This document shows, one piece after another, positions 32,708-40,369 of a DNA stretch of 64,000 bases. The notes below the pieces were generated by a model that saw only the letters and a program-made list of their open reading frames with translations, was not told the origin of the DNA and made no database searches. Both the position numbers and the translations under genes were made by a program. Where the stretch lies: positions 123,652 to 187,651 of the forward strand of contig NW_024468266.1 of the NCBI RefSeq assembly GCF_002104995.1, read 5' to 3'. The stretch's first letter is position 1. Each line of letters opens with the position of its first letter. The stretch comes from Linderina pennispora. Its lineage: Eukaryota > Kickxellomycota > Kickxellomycetes > Kickxellales > Kickxellaceae.

Positions 32708-34284
32708 TATACTGAGCAGCAAAATTGAGTCACAAAAATTTTTTCAGCTTTTCGATGCTATATCTTCATCATCAGATAACGTAGATACTTCCATTCGATA
32801 TATGTTCGATGGGGCTTGACATAGTATAAACGTATGACATTAGATGTTCTTTAAACATCGTACTTCGTATGATATCGATACAAGAGTAAAAAACTAGAAA
32901 AATTTAAGTGGCAAAAATTTGACTCACTTTGACTTCATAGTGCTATTTCTATACCCTATCATTTTTTGAATGGTGTGAAATCACTACCTATAACTCTTCT
33001 GCACTCGCTCTTCAATATTAACATCTCATTCATAACGTTGCTCAACTATACGTAGTACTATCATGTATTCAATATGAGATGAAAAATTATGAAGGAAATG
33101 ATCAACACTTCAGCGCTGCCATCACTCTTATGGATTTTGATTGCATAGCTGATATTCGCGTGATTAGTACTCAACGATGACAAGAAATGAGTTTGATAGC
33201 TAGTTCACTGAGGGAGTAATCAACTATAAATGATGCGCAACTACACTTATGCTCTCCTTTGAAGCAATGTATTTCTATGGCATGATTTTTTATAGTATCA
33301 GTATATAGATAGGTAGAGAGGATACTACTATGGCTATCTGCTCTATACTATGAGATATCCATATGTAACCTCTGTGCCTAATGATAAGCCATTTAATCTG
33401 AATCTCAAATTTTGCAACTTTCTTAATCCTTCTTTAAGCAGCTCCTTCTGATCAAATACACAATAGATCAAATCAAATATACTTGCTATACAAAGCACAT
33501 GCCCCACAGGTGACACTGAGAATGAAATATCTGAATGAATATACTCTATTCTGCCAAAAATAAAAAGAAAACCAGAATCTATGAACAATAGAAAAAGTAG
33601 ATTCTGAGTTTAGAGCAGTGTATCTCTATACAGCTAAGGCTATTGCTTCCTTAGTAGAAGGGGATGTGACATACTGACCAGTGTGTATATGATGATATAA
33701 AACATACCTTGATTACATACTTAAGATATGCAGTAGGAGTGCAAGGATTATGTCCAAAGTATTCATCATTATATAAATGGCAAATTAGGCTACCAGTTGG
33801 CTAGATATGAATACTGTTTCTACTGTATGATGATCAGTTTAGTTCCCTAGATATGATGCGCTACTCACATATAGGGCTTCAATATGAGTATGATCTGATA
33901 AAGGCCAAAATTCATCGTTTTTGGCACCTACATTGCGTTGGCCTAGGAAATTATATATACGTAAGTAAATAAAACCATTTATTCATAGGTAGTGAACTCG
34001 ATGCCTGTGCGTATCGCTGCAGTCAAAAAACTTATGGTGTCTATGCTAGTTAGTGAGAAAAAAATCGACGAATTGTGTGAGCAAAATTGAGTCAAAAATT
34101 TATATTTTTAAAAAGTCAATTTCTCGCTTATTTCAAGAGTGATAAACACATAACTACATGAAATAGATTAGTGCATGACATACACCATGATTTAATTTGA
34201 TCATATTCAATGAACGTCGTTCTGAGAAATTATTTAAGATTTTCGATGATTTTGATTTTTGTGACTCAATTTTGCCGCTCAGTG
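32708..34284 (+). mobile_element. Tc1-like transposon copy A, decayed
   Basis: A 1577-base unit begins TATACTGAGCAGCAAAATTG and ends AATTTTGCCGCTCAGTGTA, inverted termini with TA at both ends as in Tc1/mariner elements. The last 300 bases carry the sequence that in copy D encodes the transposase C-terminus (for example GAACTCGATGCCTG near 33995), so the element points to the plus strand. No transposase frame survives. C-to-T and G-to-A changes relative to copy D are frequent. It is nearly the same length as copy B and lies in the opposite orientation. Confidence 0.85.
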
Positions 34285-34618
34285 TAATTATTGTGTCCAG
34301 AATGTTTTTGCGTGTATAATTGACTTTAAAAATACAAATATCTTTTTTGCCATTTCACCCAAAACGCCATCGGCATCTTGGAAAAGTTTCAGTGAACATA
34401 ATTTCCTTGTGGTTGCTTAACCACATCTATTCAGATATTGACTTTAGCTGCCCAATGATAATTAACCACAAATATGCAAATATTTTTCTTTCGGGTTGAA
34501 ATTGTGTTCACTGAAACTTTTCTAAGATGCCGATGGCGGTTTAGGTGAAATGGCAAAAAAGATATTTGTATTTTTAAAATTAATTATACGCACAAAAACA
34601 TTCTGGACACAATAATTA
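34283..34618. repeat. MITE-like element with long inverted repeats
   Basis: A 336-base unit has arms of about 120-125 bases that are near-perfect reverse complements. The arms start TAATTATTGTGTCCAGAATG and end with the mirror image. Shared inner blocks include GCCATTTCACC and AAAAGTTTCAGTGAACA. The spacer between the arms is about 85 bases. No coding capacity. A partial copy follows Tc1 copy B at 39560-39869. The long arms could form a hairpin, so this is either a fold-back MITE or the terminal module of the adjacent island. Confidence 0.82.
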
Positions 34619-34722
34619 TAAATATCCACTCAAAAATATCTAGTAACAAAAAATCGTTAAGAAAACGAGTATTCAAATATCTATCTAGCAAAATTGTAAT
34701 TTACTAAAATATGCAAGTCCAA

Positions 34723-34735
34723 GAATGACCCCCTT
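34723..34735 (+). repeat. Candidate terminal repeat of the island, left
   Basis: GAATGACCCCCTT matches the reverse complement of 37944-37956 at 12 of 13 positions. The pair brackets the three ORFs. No flanking target duplication is visible, and the repeat contains the ORF1 start codon, so the terminal-repeat reading is tentative. Confidence 0.3.
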
Positions 34736-36359
34736 CCAAAATGAACTAAGAGCGTTGCTAACAAGAGTGTTATCAGAAAGAAGAAATATGGCTGATGTTG
34801 CTGATGCTAGGTATACTGATAGAGGTATAGAGCAACTTGGATTTAAGCATTCTTCTGACATATTTGTTGACTCATTCATTGTTGAGGTTGTTGTTGAGAA
34901 ATGCAGTGAATCAGATATAAAGGTGAAGCAGAAGTCAGCTAGTGTTAGATTGCATAAAGTATTTGGAGAAGGTTTTGGCTATAAGTATATTAGAAGAAAG
35001 ATTAGTGAGCAATATGGACCAGTTGCTTTTTACAAAGTATCTACACCAAACATTGCAATAGCTAGTTCTTTGTTAACAGTGAAGTTTGCTACTATGGCTG
35101 ATCACAAAATATATCTACAAAATTATGACATCACAATGGATTGTATGAATATCTCATCTAGAAATATTATCTATAAATACCTTTTAGAAAGAGGAGTTGA
35201 AAAGAAAGATGTTGTAGATGATTTACGCAAGTCTGGCTCTAACTGTATTAGCTGGTTTACAAAGAAAGGAGATGTTAAAGTTAAGAACAAAATTTACAAC
35301 AAGTATATTCAGCTTCTTGAGAGTGGTGAAGTTCGTAATCCTCTTAGTTCAAAACTTTCTGAGTTTATAATGCCAACTTTGCACAACTTTGGAGAAACAT
35401 TGTATGCTTGCAGAAACTCTGGCTTGACTAGGATAGAACTAACTGTACATTCTTCTCAGATGCAAACAGCTGAATGGAATAGCAACTTGCTTCTTAACAC
35501 AGTTCAGTTCATGAATGAATGCAGAACATTTGCAACTTCTTATGAAAAGCAGTGGATGGCACTTGTTGATAAAGTTAGTAGTTGTTATACAGTTTGTATT
35601 TATGTGAGACAACAGCATACTCTAGCATATTGTCATTGGTTTAACTCTATCACATCAAAGAAGCAAGGAATTATTAAGAAGCTAAACAAGAATGATGATC
35701 CAATGGTAGTTGTTGCTGATCTCTCATTCAACAACAGACCTACACTTTATCAAATATATGATTCACTTGAGAGTGGTCTTGAAACAGAAAAAGTTCTTAG
35801 AAGAGTTGATGAGAACATAACTATTGTTCTATGTCAGAGAAACTCCTTCTGGTCAACTTATCCTACAACTAAGCATTATCACACTTTTGAAGAGATGGGA
35901 TTAGTTAACTACAAAGGAATGCATATTGGTTGGATAGATAGTAAGCAAGCAAAGAGTAAGATATGTTTATCAGAAATGTCAGAGGTTGAATATTCTGCTG
36001 ATGAGGAAAACACCAATGCACTAACAACAGCAATAGACAATATCACACTTGATGAAACTAGCCATATATTTATCAAAGAGAATACAGATCTGAAACCTTC
36101 ATTGTATAGAGTTGCTTACAATGTTCTTCAGTTAGATGATGAATTTATAGTTACACATTATGCACTCCATACTTTCAGAGGACATTCATACTTCTATGTT
36201 GATATTCATATTAAAGGGAGAGATAAACAGCCAACTCTTATTAGGACACCAGCTGATAGTTCTATTGGAAAAGCAATTTCTCAACAGTTAGGAGGAACAA
36301 AGCAAGAAACATATCTAAGAGTTGTAAGTGTGGGATATAGAACAATCACAGTTGAGTAG
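34725..36359 (+). CDS. 544-residue Rep-like protein of unknown family (mobile island ORF1)
   Basis: This is an intact 544-residue frame in AT-rich sequence. I do not recognise a named domain. Visible marks are Y-D-I-T-M-D-C near residue 135, SNCISWF, then KIYNKYIQLLES (about 190-200), and LTRIELTVHS (about 235-244). An Ile/Leu-Tyr-x-K segment followed by a (T/W)-R-x-E-(L/I) strand is the order seen in rolling-circle replication initiators of the Rep_trans type. The match is by eye and no HUH pair was found, so this is a hypothesis. An alternative is a transposon accessory or DNA-binding protein. No signal or membrane segments. Its stop is 8 bases from the end of the convergent small gene and 341 bases before a DDE transposase-like gene. 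The ATG overlaps a 13-base repeat that recurs inverted beyond the DDE gene. Confidence 0.72.
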   Translation: MTPFQNELRALLTRVLSERRNMADVADARYTDRGIEQLGFKHSSDIFVDSFIVEVVVEKCSESDIKVKQKSASVRLHKVFGEGFGYKYIRRKISEQYGPVAFYKVSTPNIAIASSLLTVKFATMADHKIYLQNYDITMDCMNISSRNIIYKYLLERGVEKKDVVDDLRKSGSNCISWFTKKGDVKVKNKIYNKYIQLLESGEVRNPLSSKLSEFIMPTLHNFGETLYACRNSGLTRIELTVHSSQMQTAEWNSNLLLNTVQFMNECRTFATSYEKQWMALVDKVSSCYTVCIYVRQQHTLAYCHWFNSITSKKQGIIKKLNKNDDPMVVVADLSFNNRPTLYQIYDSLESGLETEKVLRRVDENITIVLCQRNSFWSTYPTTKHYHTFEEMGLVNYKGMHIGWIDSKQAKSKICLSEMSEVEYSADEENTNALTTAIDNITLDETSHIFIKENTDLKPSLYRVAYNVLQLDDEFIVTHYALHTFRGHSYFYVDIHIKGRDKQPTLIRTPADSSIGKAISQQLGGTKQETYLRVVSVGYRTITVE

Positions 36360-36367
36360 CAGCCATT

Positions 36368-36607
36368 TTAAAACATAGTATAAGCAACCATTCTCTCCAT
36401 ATCTCTATGGAAAGTATGACAAACATCATACACATGTTCAACCCTTACCTCACAATCAGTAGCAATATGTTGGATCCAATTACGCACTTGTATTGCTAGG
36501 TCATCACTCATATCAAAGTCATGAATAAGTAGCAGAGTAAGCATATCTCTTTCTTCCTCACACATCTCAGCTAAGTGTTGCTTGAAGAAGTTCTGGAATG
36601 ATCCCAT
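36368..36607 (-). CDS. Small acidic helical protein (mobile island ORF2)
   Basis: The 79-residue frame is rich in Glu, Asp, His and Met and predicted by eye to be mostly helical (FKQHLAEMCEEERDMLTLLL, then QVRNWIQHIA). It has no membrane or signal segment. It converges on the Rep-like gene (8-base gap between stops) and diverges from the DDE gene (93 bases between starts). Tight packing between two intact genes is the main support. Function unknown; a regulator or partner of one of its neighbours is possible. Confidence 0.45.
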   Translation of the reverse strand: MGSFQNFFKQHLAEMCEEERDMLTLLLIHDFDMSDDLAIQVRNWIQHIATDCEVRVEHVYDVCHTFHRDMERMVAYTMF

Positions 36608-36700
36608 TTTCTAAAATTGATAAAAGTTGAAATTTTTATTTATGACTACCTCACACAGATGGACAATTAATTACAAGAATTAAGAGAGAAGGAGTGGAAT

Positions 36701-37900
36701 GTGCTCTACACAACAAAGTGGAGATTTCTTGATGAAGACTGGTTAGTACATAAACAACAAAAGTACTACAGGAGTGAAGCTCATGAAGTGAAAGAAATTA
36801 AGCTCATCAAAGATACACTTGTGAAGCAACTTGGAATGATCCCTGTGTTCTTCTTCCTAAATGTTCTATTTGGTGGAAAGCAGTATCCATGTCCATACAG
36901 AAATGTTGAGAAAGGACTCTTGATTTTGTACCAGTTAGTTGCTGGGCTATCAATCAATGAGATGGAGAGGTTTATTCCTAAGAGCAGCTATCAGGTAATT
37001 CATAATATGTTCTATCTCTCAGAGTTAAGTGAGTTGAACAAGAAGCTTTCACACTACTTGCACACAATGTTCTCTACTCCAGAACTAAGAGTGATCTCAG
37101 CAAAGATTCAGAATCCACAAGGGTTTAAGCATATTACTCTTATGTTAGATGGACATGACTCACGAGCACTACATAATGGTGCATACAAACCAAATCTTTA
37201 TTCCTTCAAGTTGAAGAAGTCAGGATATAGAACACAAGTTTGCATTGATTTGAATGGAATGGTTGTCCTTGTTTCACCAACTGAGGAGTGTAAAGACTAC
37301 CCAGATTCTAAGATGATTAAGAACATGTCACTATTGAAATACATCTCTCCAGTAGATTGTGTTGTACTAGATGGTGGTTATCCTCAAAGTATTCTGGAGG
37401 AGTTAACAGAAGCAGAAGAGAATGAGAATTTTGGAATGCATAACTTTTGCTTACCAGTTAGAAAGCTAAGAGGAACCAACTTAAGTGAGGCAGAGTTAGA
37501 ATATAATAGCAAACTTGGGTCATTTAGATCAATGGTCGAGAGCACATTTGGAGAACTAGGTAACATATTTAAGAGACTTTCAAATAGAGAAGTTGTGAGA
37601 ATTAGAAATACAACTGTGTGCAATGTGCAGTTTAAACTCTTTTGCTTACTCTACAACATGAAGAAGATTCTAGCAGCTAGTAAAGTTCCTATTGAACATC
37701 ACCACACACTTTGGGTTCTATCTAACTTTGACTACCCAAGCAACAACCAGGAGAGATCAACACATGTTGAAGTTGGAAGTAGCTTACCACAGAAAGTAGA
37801 GTTAGAGGCTTCAATGAGAGAACTACATGATAGGCTTATTCAAGCTAAAATTGATGAGTCAATGAACTTCTATGTAGATATGATATCAGTATTAAAATAG
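36701..37900 (+). CDS. DDE-superfamily transposase/endonuclease-like protein (mobile island ORF3)
   Basis: This 399-residue intact frame resembles the DDE_Tnp_4 group (harbinger/IS5-like nucleases). Candidate catalytic residues are D150 in ITLMLDGHDSR, D224 in VVLDGGYP and E280 in GSFRSMVESTFGELG, in the family's order and with family-like context (D-G-G-Y after the second Asp; R-x-x-x-E-x-x-F-G-x-L around the Glu). The region before D150 contains helices that could bind DNA (CPYRNVEKGLLILYQLVAGL, about 64-83). The frame has few CG dinucleotides, yet no stops, unlike the decayed Tc1 copies around it. That suggests recent activity or selection. Unlike harbinger elements, the partner gene is the Rep-like ORF rather than a Myb-like protein. 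Confidence 0.8.
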   Translation: MLYTTKWRFLDEDWLVHKQQKYYRSEAHEVKEIKLIKDTLVKQLGMIPVFFFLNVLFGGKQYPCPYRNVEKGLLILYQLVAGLSINEMERFIPKSSYQVIHNMFYLSELSELNKKLSHYLHTMFSTPELRVISAKIQNPQGFKHITLMLDGHDSRALHNGAYKPNLYSFKLKKSGYRTQVCIDLNGMVVLVSPTEECKDYPDSKMIKNMSLLKYISPVDCVVLDGGYPQSILEELTEAEENENFGMHNFCLPVRKLRGTNLSEAELEYNSKLGSFRSMVESTFGELGNIFKRLSNREVVRIRNTTVCNVQFKLFCLLYNMKKILAASKVPIEHHHTLWVLSNFDYPSNNQERSTHVEVGSSLPQKVELEASMRELHDRLIQAKIDESMNFYVDMISVLK

Positions 37901-37943
37901 GATTTTTCAGTGAGAATTTTGCATTGATAGAAAATGCTTCAAT

Positions 37944-37956
37944 AAGGAGGTCATTC
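37944..37956 (-). repeat. Candidate terminal repeat of the island, right
   Basis: AAGGAGGTCATTC is the inverted partner of 34723-34735 (12 of 13 positions). It lies 44 bases after the DDE gene stop. Confidence 0.3.
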
Positions 37957-37980
37957 AGAGTTAGTTCTCTGCACAACAAC

Positions 37981-39559
37981 TACACTGAGCAGCAAAACTG
38001 AGTCATAATAATAATATCACCAGAAATCTTTAATAATTTCTCATTACGATATGCATTGCACTTGACAAAATTAATTCATGGTGCATACCATGCACTAATC
38101 TATTTTATGTAGTTGCATGCCTATAGCTCTCGAAATAATCGAGATATTGACTTTTTGAAAAATAGATTTTTGACTCAGTTTTACTTATAAAAATTTGTCG
38201 ATTTATTTCTCAACAACTAGCATAGCCACCACAGGATTTTTTTGACCGCAGCGATACGCCCAGGCATCGTGTTCACTACCCATGAATAAACGGTTTCATT
38301 TACTTTCTCATGTATAATTTCCTAAACCAATGCATTGTAGGTGCCAAAAACGATTAATTTTGGCCGTTATCAGAGCATACTCATAGTGAAGCCCTATATG
38401 CGAATAGCGCATTGTATCTAGGAGACTACACTAATCATCATACAATAGAAACAGTATACGCATTTAGCTAACTAATAGCCCAAATTGCCTTTTATATGGT
38501 GATGATTTCTTTAGACATAATCTTTGCATTATCCTACTGCATATCCTAAGTATGTAATCAAGGTACGTTTCATACCATCATATGCACACTGGTCAGTGTG
38601 TCATATCCCCCTCTACTAAGGAAGCAATAACCACAGCTGTATGGAGATATACTACTCTAAACTCAGTGTCTGCTATTTCTAATTTTCTTAGAATCTAGAT
38701 TTCTTCCTAGTGTTCATAGAATAGAGAATTTTTATTAGGATATTCCATTTCCATAGACACCTGTGGGGCATGCACTTTGTATAGCAAGTATATTTGATTT
38801 GATCTATTGTGTATATGATCAGTAATCGCTGCTTAAAGAAGGATTAAGAAAGTTGCAAAATTTGAGATTCAGATTAAATAGCTTATCATTAGGCACAGAG
38901 GTTACATATGGATATCTCATAGTATAGAGTGGATAACTACAGTAGTAACCTCTCTACCTATCTATATATTGTTACTATAAAAAATCATGTCATAGAATTA
39001 CATTGCTTCAATAGAGAGCATAAGTGTAGTTGTGCATCATTTATAGTTGATTACTTCTTCTGTGAACTAGCTATCAGTCTCATATCTCTTCAGCGTTGAA
39101 TACTAGTCACGTGAATATCAATCACGCAATCAACATCTATAAGAGTGATGGCAGCGCTGAAGCGTTGGTCATTTCCTTCATATTTTTTCATCTCATATTG
39201 AATACATGATAGTACCATGCGTAGTTGAGCAACATTGTGAATGAGATATTTATATAGAAGTGGGAGTGCAGCAGAGTTATGGGCAGAGATTTCACATCAT
39301 TCAAAAAATGATATGGTATAGAAATAGCACTATGAAGTCAGAGTCAAATTTTTGCTTCTCAAAATTTTCTAATTTTTTATTCTTGAATCGATATCATACG
39401 AAGTACGATGTTTAGAGAACGTCTGACTTCATACGTTTATACTATGTCAAACCCCATCGAACATATGTCGAATGGAAGTATCTACGTTATCTGATGACGA
39501 AGATATAGCATCAAAAAGTTGAAAAAAATTTTTGTGACTCAATTTTGCCGCTCAGTGTA
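37981..39559 (-). mobile_element. Tc1-like transposon copy B, decayed, inverted to copy A
   Basis: A 1579-base unit is bounded by TACACTGAGCAGCAAAACTG and AATTTTGCCGCTCAGTGTA. Its reverse complement tracks copy A along the whole length (for example the ATCAGATAACGTAGATACTT block near 39480 against 32775). The transposase frame is destroyed. Orientation is minus, judged from the C-terminal coding remnant near 38205-38290. Confidence 0.85.
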
Positions 39560-39984
39560 TTTATGCATGGTGAAACTATTGGCAATTTCAGTGAAATAAT
39601 AATTTCATCCAAACCACTATTGGCATCTTAGAAAAGTTTCAGTGAACATAATTTCCTTGTGGTTGCTTAGCAACACCCATTGAGATTATGACTTTTGTTG
39701 TCTTATGATAATTAATCCCAAATATGCAATGGTTTTTCTTTCTGGTTGAAATTATGTTCATTGAAACTTTTTCAAGATACCAATGGCGGTTTGGGTGGAA
39801 TGGCAAAAAAGATATTTGTATTTTTAAAATAAATTATACACACAAAAGCATTCTGGATACAATAATTATAAATACCCACTCCAAAAATATCCAGCAGCAA
39901 AAAATAGTTCTGAAAACGATTATTCAAATATCTATCTAACTAAATTGCAAATATCTAAAATTTACAAATCCAATACTGACCCCG
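39560..39984 (+). repeat. Direct copy of the island's upstream module
   Basis: The sequence is a diverged direct repeat of 34285-34735. It covers a MITE copy with a shortened left arm, the ATAATTATAAATA.CCACTC segment and the ATTCAAATATCTATCTA segment, and stops at the island's candidate terminus (ACTGACCCC). It immediately abuts Tc1 copy B on the left and Tc1 fragment C on the right. Confidence 0.75.
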
Positions 39985-40369
39985 AAAGGCCAAAATTAAT
40001 CATTTTTGACATATATGTTGTAGTGGTCTAGGAAATTGTTCATGAGTAAGTAAATGAAATTGCTTTTCATGGTTAGTGAACTAAATGCCTGAGCGTATCG
40101 CTGCAGCCAAAAAAGTCTATGGCAACTATGTTAGTTATTGAGAAATAAATCGTCGAATTTTGTGGGCAAAATTGAGCCAAAAATTTTTATTCAAAAAGCC
40201 AATTTCTCTATTATTTCAAGGCTGATAAGCATAAAACTACATGAAATAGATTAATGCATGGCATATACCACGAATTGATTTTGTCAAGAGTTATTCATAT
40301 CACTATGAGATATTATTAATGATTTCTGATGATTTATATTTTTGTGACTCAATTTTGCCGCTCAGTGTA
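39985..40369 (+). mobile_element. Tc1-like fragment C (3' 385 bases)
   Basis: It matches the last 385 bases of copy A (from the AAGGCCAAAATT.ATC block to GCCGCTCAGTGTA). The left part is missing. Its right terminus interrupts the ABCC transporter pseudogene, within the nucleotide-binding-domain remnant. Confidence 0.82.

Follow-up and report, generated by a model that had tools for sequence, protein, structure and literature searches.

A multicopy DNA transposon of Linderina pennispora that pairs a DDE_Tnp_4 transposase with a predicted Rep_trans-like protein

Results

A worn transposon copy flanked and split by Tc1-like sequences

The window analysed here is a 64,000-nucleotide stretch of contig NW_024468266.1 from the Linderina pennispora assembly (26.17 Mb in 222 contigs). 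Sequence comparison across this assembly identifies the locus as one worn copy of a multicopy DNA transposon of about 4.1 kb (about 4,140 bp), with the plan X–ORF1–ORF2 (reverse)–ORF3–X, where X is a terminal repeat. A Tc1-like copy on the forward strand (32708..34286) adjoins the left X (34287..34733, forward strand, ending ...GAATGACCCCC), which has a mirror form, the left half repeating the right half in inverted orientation. Within it, a left palindrome arm of 121 nt (34285..34405), 93% complementary to the right arm with which it pairs (34498..34618), encloses a 92-nt loop (34406..34497) that occurs in either orientation among copies. The preliminary description had seen a MITE-like module upstream of the genes; the long palindrome is there, but it is part of the element's own left X. 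The outer part of the left X is lacking where X meets the Tc1-like copy, and a search on the far side of that Tc1 did not recover it, so the window copy yields no target duplication.

ORF1 (34725..36359, forward strand, 544 aa), predicted to be a Rep_trans-like replication initiator with a TATA-binding protein (TBP) fold, has its ATG in the last bases of the left X. It is followed by ORF2 (36368..36607, reverse strand, 79 aa) and by ORF3 (36659..37900, forward strand), a DDE_Tnp_4 transposase gene by its sequence, which is open from 36701 (399 codons, GTG start). The right X begins at 37946 (GGAGGTCATTCAGAG..., 37946..37982), is split by a Tc1-like insertion on the reverse strand (37983..39557), inverted relative to the left Tc1-like copy, and resumes at 39558..39983, where ...CTGACCCC marks the right end of the element; the block therefore does not stop at 37980, as had been supposed. 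A further Tc1-like fragment (39985..40369, forward strand) lies directly after this end. The bracketing of the block by Tc1 copies in opposite orientation (about 32708-34286 and 37983-39557) was correctly described, as were the positions and lengths of three ORFs of 544, 79 and 399 codons, but not all three are intact. In sister copies ORF3 has 409 codons, and its ATG start corresponds to position 36659; the window ORF3 has an early in-frame stop after this start, which suggests that the window copy is probably not fully functional.

A family with direct terminal repeats and 3-bp target duplications

The genome contains at least 80 matches to ORF1 and at least 107 to ORF3, fragments included, which fall into two subfamilies, A (about 94% identity for ORF1 and 96% for ORF3) and B (about 50% and 75%). 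The 52 longest of the ORF1 matches were compared with 92 of the ORF3 matches, and 48 of these ORF1 matches are followed on their own strand by an ORF3 match no more than 1 kb away. Far from never co-occurring, homologues of the two genes adjoin at nearly every locus compared, which bears out the earlier proposal of a small element in which a Rep-like protein and a DDE transposase go together. Two further ORF1 relatives lie on contigs whose lengths (3698 and 3700) equal those of contigs bearing DDE relatives, which suggests that the contigs may be the same.

We read ten regions in addition to the window, chosen around ORF1 matches and not at random. Copies with all three frames open exist in the genome, and of the 12 full-length A-type ORF3 frames other than the reference in the regions read, seven show no difference from it, indicating that amplification was recent. 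Of the 12 complete A elements, ten are free of nested insertions and measure 4,138-4,144 bp. The X of subfamily A measures 455-466 bp (mostly 461-462 bp) and has the same orientation at both ends of the element. Because it starts with GGRGGTYAT and ends with ATGACCCCC, X has inverted ends of its own, like an LTR or a transposon. Common termini and target duplications, which the preliminary description had proposed to look for, are both present: the ends of X are shared, and the outer flanks are matching 3-bp duplications in 11 of the 12 complete pairs (TTA, ATA, ACT, ATT, AAT, ACG, ATA, ATG, TAT, TGA and GAT; the exception is CCT/TAT). One additional copy, C157b, has a worn left end, two X of different lineages and flanks that do not match; it was left out of the 12 pairs and would be a 13th, without a matching duplication. 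For five of the 12 elements an uninterrupted copy of the target was found among the sequences read, four of them exact and one with 1 mismatch in 30. Target duplications together with inverted ends show that integration is of the DDE type.

Contig C1, at its end, and contig C133 contain head-to-tail units with a period of 3,678 bp. Solo copies of X also exist; there are 120 GGAATGACCCCC sites, compared with 39 that have an ORF1 start behind them, and the arms of two measured solo X are worn (50/54 and 51/54). Subfamily B follows the same plan with its own repeat, X_B, of 397 bp (GGAGATCAGTCAG...GAATGGCCTCC), whose copies at the two element ends point the same way; one element is flanked by a TAT/TAT duplication and another by AAT/AGT. 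X_A and X_B are alignable at the left end and at the palindrome core. As many element copies sit at contig ends, a link with telomeres was considered, but four tandem TTAGGG units are absent from the whole assembly, which may lack telomeres or have another repeat.

The palindrome within X carries a loop that flips

The palindrome is internal to X, with 79 bp before it and about 183 bp after it. Among 34 A-type X, a set that omits the 4 of 38 instances without a recognised left end (one at a contig end, C157b and the two window X), 28 have 54-bp arms that pair without a mismatch. The 92-nt loop is inverted in 14 of these 34 copies, and its orientation differs between the two X of the same element in four of 12 elements. 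The two X of the C112 element agree at 462/462 positions after inversion of the segment. The close likeness between the two X copies was also considered as proof of a single template, but a control comparison weakened this argument and we do not use it as main evidence. In subfamily B, perfect 60-bp arms surround a 46-nt loop in all six X_B examined, and this loop is likewise seen in both orientations.

Mirror-form X, in which one half has apparently been copied inverted, were read from match coordinates at C24, C101, C135, C168 and C190, where the query matched both ways over nearly its whole length. This search scored 40 of 172 candidates; for the C101 and C135 copies exact ends were obtained separately. 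The left X of the window matches the query in both orientations over positions 3-336 of 453.

ORF3 is a DDE transposase and ORF2 is a real gene

ORF3 matches Pfam DDE_Tnp_4 with an E-value of 1e-11 (45 bits against a cut-off of 24.8), and D150, D224 and E280 (numbered from the start at 36701) are invariant in 12/12 aligned relatives. We recovered 73 homologues of ORF3, many with an added chromodomain; judging by genus, we take the named relatives to be Kickxellales (Linderina, Coemansia), many Mortierellomycotina and some Mucorales.

Substitution rates were estimated by the Nei-Gojobori method. For ORF1, dN/dS is 0.17-0.20 between B copies and 0.28-0.42 between the window and other A copies. 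For ORF3 it is 0.03-0.11 between A copies where these differ and about 0.10 between A and B, the latter from two of five comparisons (the other three, which began one codon out of step, were discarded). For ORF2 it is 0.09-0.22 between B copies and about 0.22-0.36 between A and B, where dS is near saturation. These ratios indicate purifying selection on all three genes. ORF2 keeps its exact length of 79 aa between A and B at 43-46% identity, and this conserved length, together with dN below dS, marks it as a real gene on sequence grounds.

A predicted TBP-like fold and most Rep_trans catalytic residues in ORF1

Neither ORF1 nor ORF2 has a match in Pfam at E-values up to 10, Myb domains included. 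The closest relatives of ORF1 are three sequences, all from Linderina pennispora, at 50-91% identity, and seven of the 11 aligned ORF1 sequences are only 25-28% identical to that of the window. Across this alignment D49, D135, D139, K189, Y191, K193, Q196, R236 and E238 are invariant in 11/11 sequences. In RepDE the metal ligands are D46, D142 and E214, the nucleophile is Y191, and R189, K193, E196 and R212 complete the set, with RepSTK1 having Q at the position of RepDE E196 (Carr et al., PMC4797284). The invariant residues of ORF1 occur in the same order as this catalytic set, and the predicted secondary structure places D49, D135, Y191 and E238 in strands and Q196 in the helix that follows Y191. 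Three Rep_trans motifs are present in 11/11 sequences, namely the D of motif N' (D49), motif III (Y191-x-K193-x-x-Q196) and the RxE of motif IV (R236-x-E238), following the residues given in PMC4797284 and PMC5714925. Motif I (RxD) is incomplete in the 11 sequences, D135 being invariant and R replaced by N, S or D, and motif II (T/SxY/ExG) is also incomplete, with G in 6/11. Y191 is the likely nucleophile of ORF1.

The residue pattern, loosely spaced and written after both the ORF1 and the Rep_trans sets were known, was recovered in 0/200,000 shuffles of the invariant string and in 1649/100,000 shuffles of the whole sequence. It does not occur in the string of invariant residues taken from the DDE alignment. 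The N-terminal model of ORF1 resembles TBP/Rep_trans folds, and most of its structural matches are TBPs; the Foldseek result is not significant. The VIA alignment with 4cij begins by pairing model residue 12 (ORF1 residue 41) with chain residue 1 and, if ungapped there, sets D49 on D9, a metal ligand of RepSTK1.

Sequence-based comparisons were not significant when ORF1 was aligned using hhalign with pT181 RepC and with nine Rep_trans proteins, or when it was searched against PDB sequences. The best match in PHROGs had an E-value of 0.08, not significant, and no replication family was among the 11 matches listed. PF02486 matched 0/11 ORF1 members and nothing in the genome. Pattern searches yielded no ORF1 relatives in IMG/VR (from 54 pattern matches) or in prokaryote genomes (from 90), and a second, profile search for ORF1 added no further homologue. 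The yardsticks for Rep_trans were pT181 RepC and proteins at PF02486 matches. Two other candidates were rejected as yardsticks, RstA of Stenotrophomonas phage SMA9, whose stretch chosen for comparison lacked any Pfam match and which found nothing in plasmids, and the protein of Propionibacterium phage B5, which belongs to Rep_1.

The preliminary description had placed Rep-type initiators in single-strand replicons or Helitron-like elements. ORF1 does not belong to the HUH/Helitron kind, as there is no HxH among the invariant columns and the sole invariant histidine is H304; the likeness is instead to TBP-fold Rep_trans. A TBP-like fold carrying most of the Rep_trans rolling-circle catalytic set is supported for ORF1 by modelling and residue conservation, though not proven. 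We regard ORF1 as a protein that would work like Rep_trans but is not assignable to PF02486, and consider it quite probable that it is a Rep_trans-fold initiator.

Discussion

The integration half of the element resembles PIF/Harbinger transposons, with which it shares a DDE_Tnp_4 transposase with an intact DDE triad, short terminal inverted repeats, a second protein encoded beside the transposase and a 3-bp target duplication (the last as given for PIF/Harbinger in PMC2213677). It differs from them in having no Myb match and a Rep_trans-like second protein instead, in its direct terminal repeats of about 460 bp with a flipping palindrome, and in its third, reverse-strand ORF and head-to-tail units. 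To our knowledge, direct terminal repeats are foreign to the PIF/Harbinger group. LTR retrotransposons do have near-identical direct repeats bounded by short inverted repeats, and solo repeats occur among them. The element shares the direct repeats with short inverted ends and the solo repeats, but Pfam reveals no reverse transcriptase in its three ORFs, its repeat contains a palindrome and its enzyme is of the DDE_Tnp_4 kind. Helitrons and Replitrons are eukaryotic transposons thought to copy via a tyrosine nickase, and their enzymes are HUH proteins. ORF1 differs from these and from CRESS proteins in lacking an invariant HxH, and the Linderina family makes 3-bp duplications.

Among Rep_trans proteins (pT181 RepC/RepD, RepSTK1 and the ICEBs1/Tn916 relaxases), ORF1 shares the predicted TBP-like fold and, arranged in the same order and on strands, the D/D/E metal set, YxKxx[EQ] and RxE; a further likeness is that the origin is probably a palindrome (PMC4797284 and PMC5714925). 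It differs in having no significant sequence match, a long extra C-terminal half and a location in a fungal nuclear transposon, whereas Rep_trans is described as apparently restricted to bacteria in a 2026 paper (PMC13107129), which yet links it to an archaeal family. That family, Rep-Arvir (RepSNJ2; archaeal viruses and plasmids), has a TBP-fold initiator tied to Rep_trans by structure, the relationship not being recognisable at the sequence level, and a hairpin-forming likely origin; unlike our element it is archaeal and has a MarR-like winged helix, its tyrosine in KHYYM and a virus integrase rather than a DDE transposase (PMC13107129). The nearest working analogue in the accessible literature is TnGBS of streptococci, which combines a DDE transposase with a circular form and plasmid-like replication; it differs in being bacterial and conjugative, with a Mutator-like DDE enzyme and duplications of 8-9 bp stated for its group (PMC3942029).

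We propose a model in which ORF1 would nick at the X palindrome (34285-34618 in the window), the putative replication origin. Strand displacement from one X to the next would then produce circles carrying one X, or else head-to-tail multimers. The loop would be flipped by processing of a hairpin or cruciform, and the DDE enzyme would insert the X-to-X segment with a 3-bp duplication. Copying and pasting would thus be performed by separate enzymes. X-to-X copying with hairpin or cruciform processing is what we infer from the direct X, the head-to-tail units and the flip-flop palindrome beside a Rep-like gene. On balance we lean towards the locus being a worn copy of a DNA transposon family of about 4.1 kb that uses two enzymes in this manner.

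A different role for ORF1 would be that of a TBP-fold DNA-binding partner of the DDE enzyme, a substitute for the Myb-like protein of Harbinger elements, which binds the palindrome without nicking it, with movement by cut-and-paste and host recombination keeping the X alike. Most structural matches being TBPs, which are non-enzymes, and the failure of the sequence-profile tests against Rep_trans would both fit such a role, yet a mere binder need not hold Y191, K193, Q196, D49, D135, R236 and E238 invariant across 11 sequences, and the direct repeats, head-to-tail units and loop flipping would be left unexplained; we consider it rather unlikely. We find it more doubtful still that ORF1 is incidental and the element a composite transposon, with X a MITE in its own right, the genes caught by chance between two copies of it, and a DDE enzyme that mobilises either a single X or the entire unit. 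X does have its own inverted ends, and solo X exist, GGAATGACCCCC sites outnumbering those with an ORF1 start, but these can come from recombination between direct repeats and the two measured have worn arms. Moreover, A and B keep the plan and homologous X ends and core although their ORF1 proteins are only about 50% identical, ORF1 is under purifying selection, and its start codon lies inside X.

Copying from the palindrome by ORF1 could also follow a rolling-hairpin route as in parvoviruses, where the X palindromes would fold into hairpin ends resolved by ORF1 and the mirror-form X would be fold-back products. That the loop is inverted exactly, between arms without a mismatch, suits this route, as do the six mirror-form X found by coordinates among the 40 of 172 candidates scored, the window's (in part) included. 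The palindrome, however, lies inside X and not at the end of the element, head-to-tail multimers fit circles better than hairpin ends, and the mirror forms other than the window's were identified by their coordinates. We therefore prefer rolling-circle to rolling-hairpin copying and regard the latter as improbable.

We did not find the pairing of a Rep-like protein with a DDE transposase in the open-licence literature, judging from the titles and abstract openings among the matches listed. Taken alone, the integration half would be a variant of the PIF/Harbinger kind. Whether the element represents a class of eukaryotic transposons that divide copying and pasting between two unrelated enzymes, in which a plasmid-type Rep_trans-fold nickase copies from a flip-flopping palindrome in LTR-like repeats to give circles or head-to-tail multimers and a Harbinger-like DDE enzyme inserts the X-to-X units, is, in our estimate, evenly balanced.

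If this is true, eukaryotes would gain their first Rep_trans-fold replicator, which would extend these initiators to the nucleus and link plasmid-like replicons with DNA transposons. Harbinger-type transposons are regarded as cut-and-paste elements whose gain in copies falls to the host. With an initiator and an origin of its own, the element would illustrate how a DDE transposon can copy itself and how direct terminal repeats can originate without reverse transcription, the flip-flop palindrome being a direct readout of the DNA intermediate. Linderina pennispora is culturable and carries many near-identical, apparently young copies, and the model would be testable in this species.

ORF1 and ORF3 proteins

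The C-terminal half of ORF1, the predicted Rep_trans-like initiator, spans residues 290-544 and contains an invariant YCHWxNxxT motif (Y302-T310); no family was found for this half with its motif. The ORF1 protein P0001, whose gene lies on a contig of 79,268 bases, shares 91% identity with the ORF1 of the window. A chromodomain (PF00385) is present in many relatives of the ORF3 transposase (P0013-P0055); the Linderina ORF3 has none.

Nested elements and mirrored ends

Elements of the A and B subfamilies are densely nested on five contigs of the Linderina pennispora assembly (C35, C133, C144, C157 and C212). As examples from these nests, one A copy occupies a site that is found uninterrupted in copies of the B ORF1, and another occupies a site inside an A ORF3. 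Tc1-like copies lie at or within both X repeats (the directly repeated ends) of the window element, at positions 32708-34286, 37983-39557 and 39985-40369, and Tc1 pieces (75-95% identity) are also found next to other copies of the element.

Mirrored forms of X, in which one half is copied in inverted orientation, were recognised from match coordinates. Exact ends were located for two fully mirrored copies in the same genome, C135:4350-4911 and C101:70182-70745, which span 562-564 bp and end in GGGGGTCATTCC on one side and the complement of GGGGGTCATTCC on the other. The genome holds further mirrored forms besides these two. The C135 copy adjoins a cut ORF3 match, and therefore the mirrored X may insert by itself, in a MITE-like manner.
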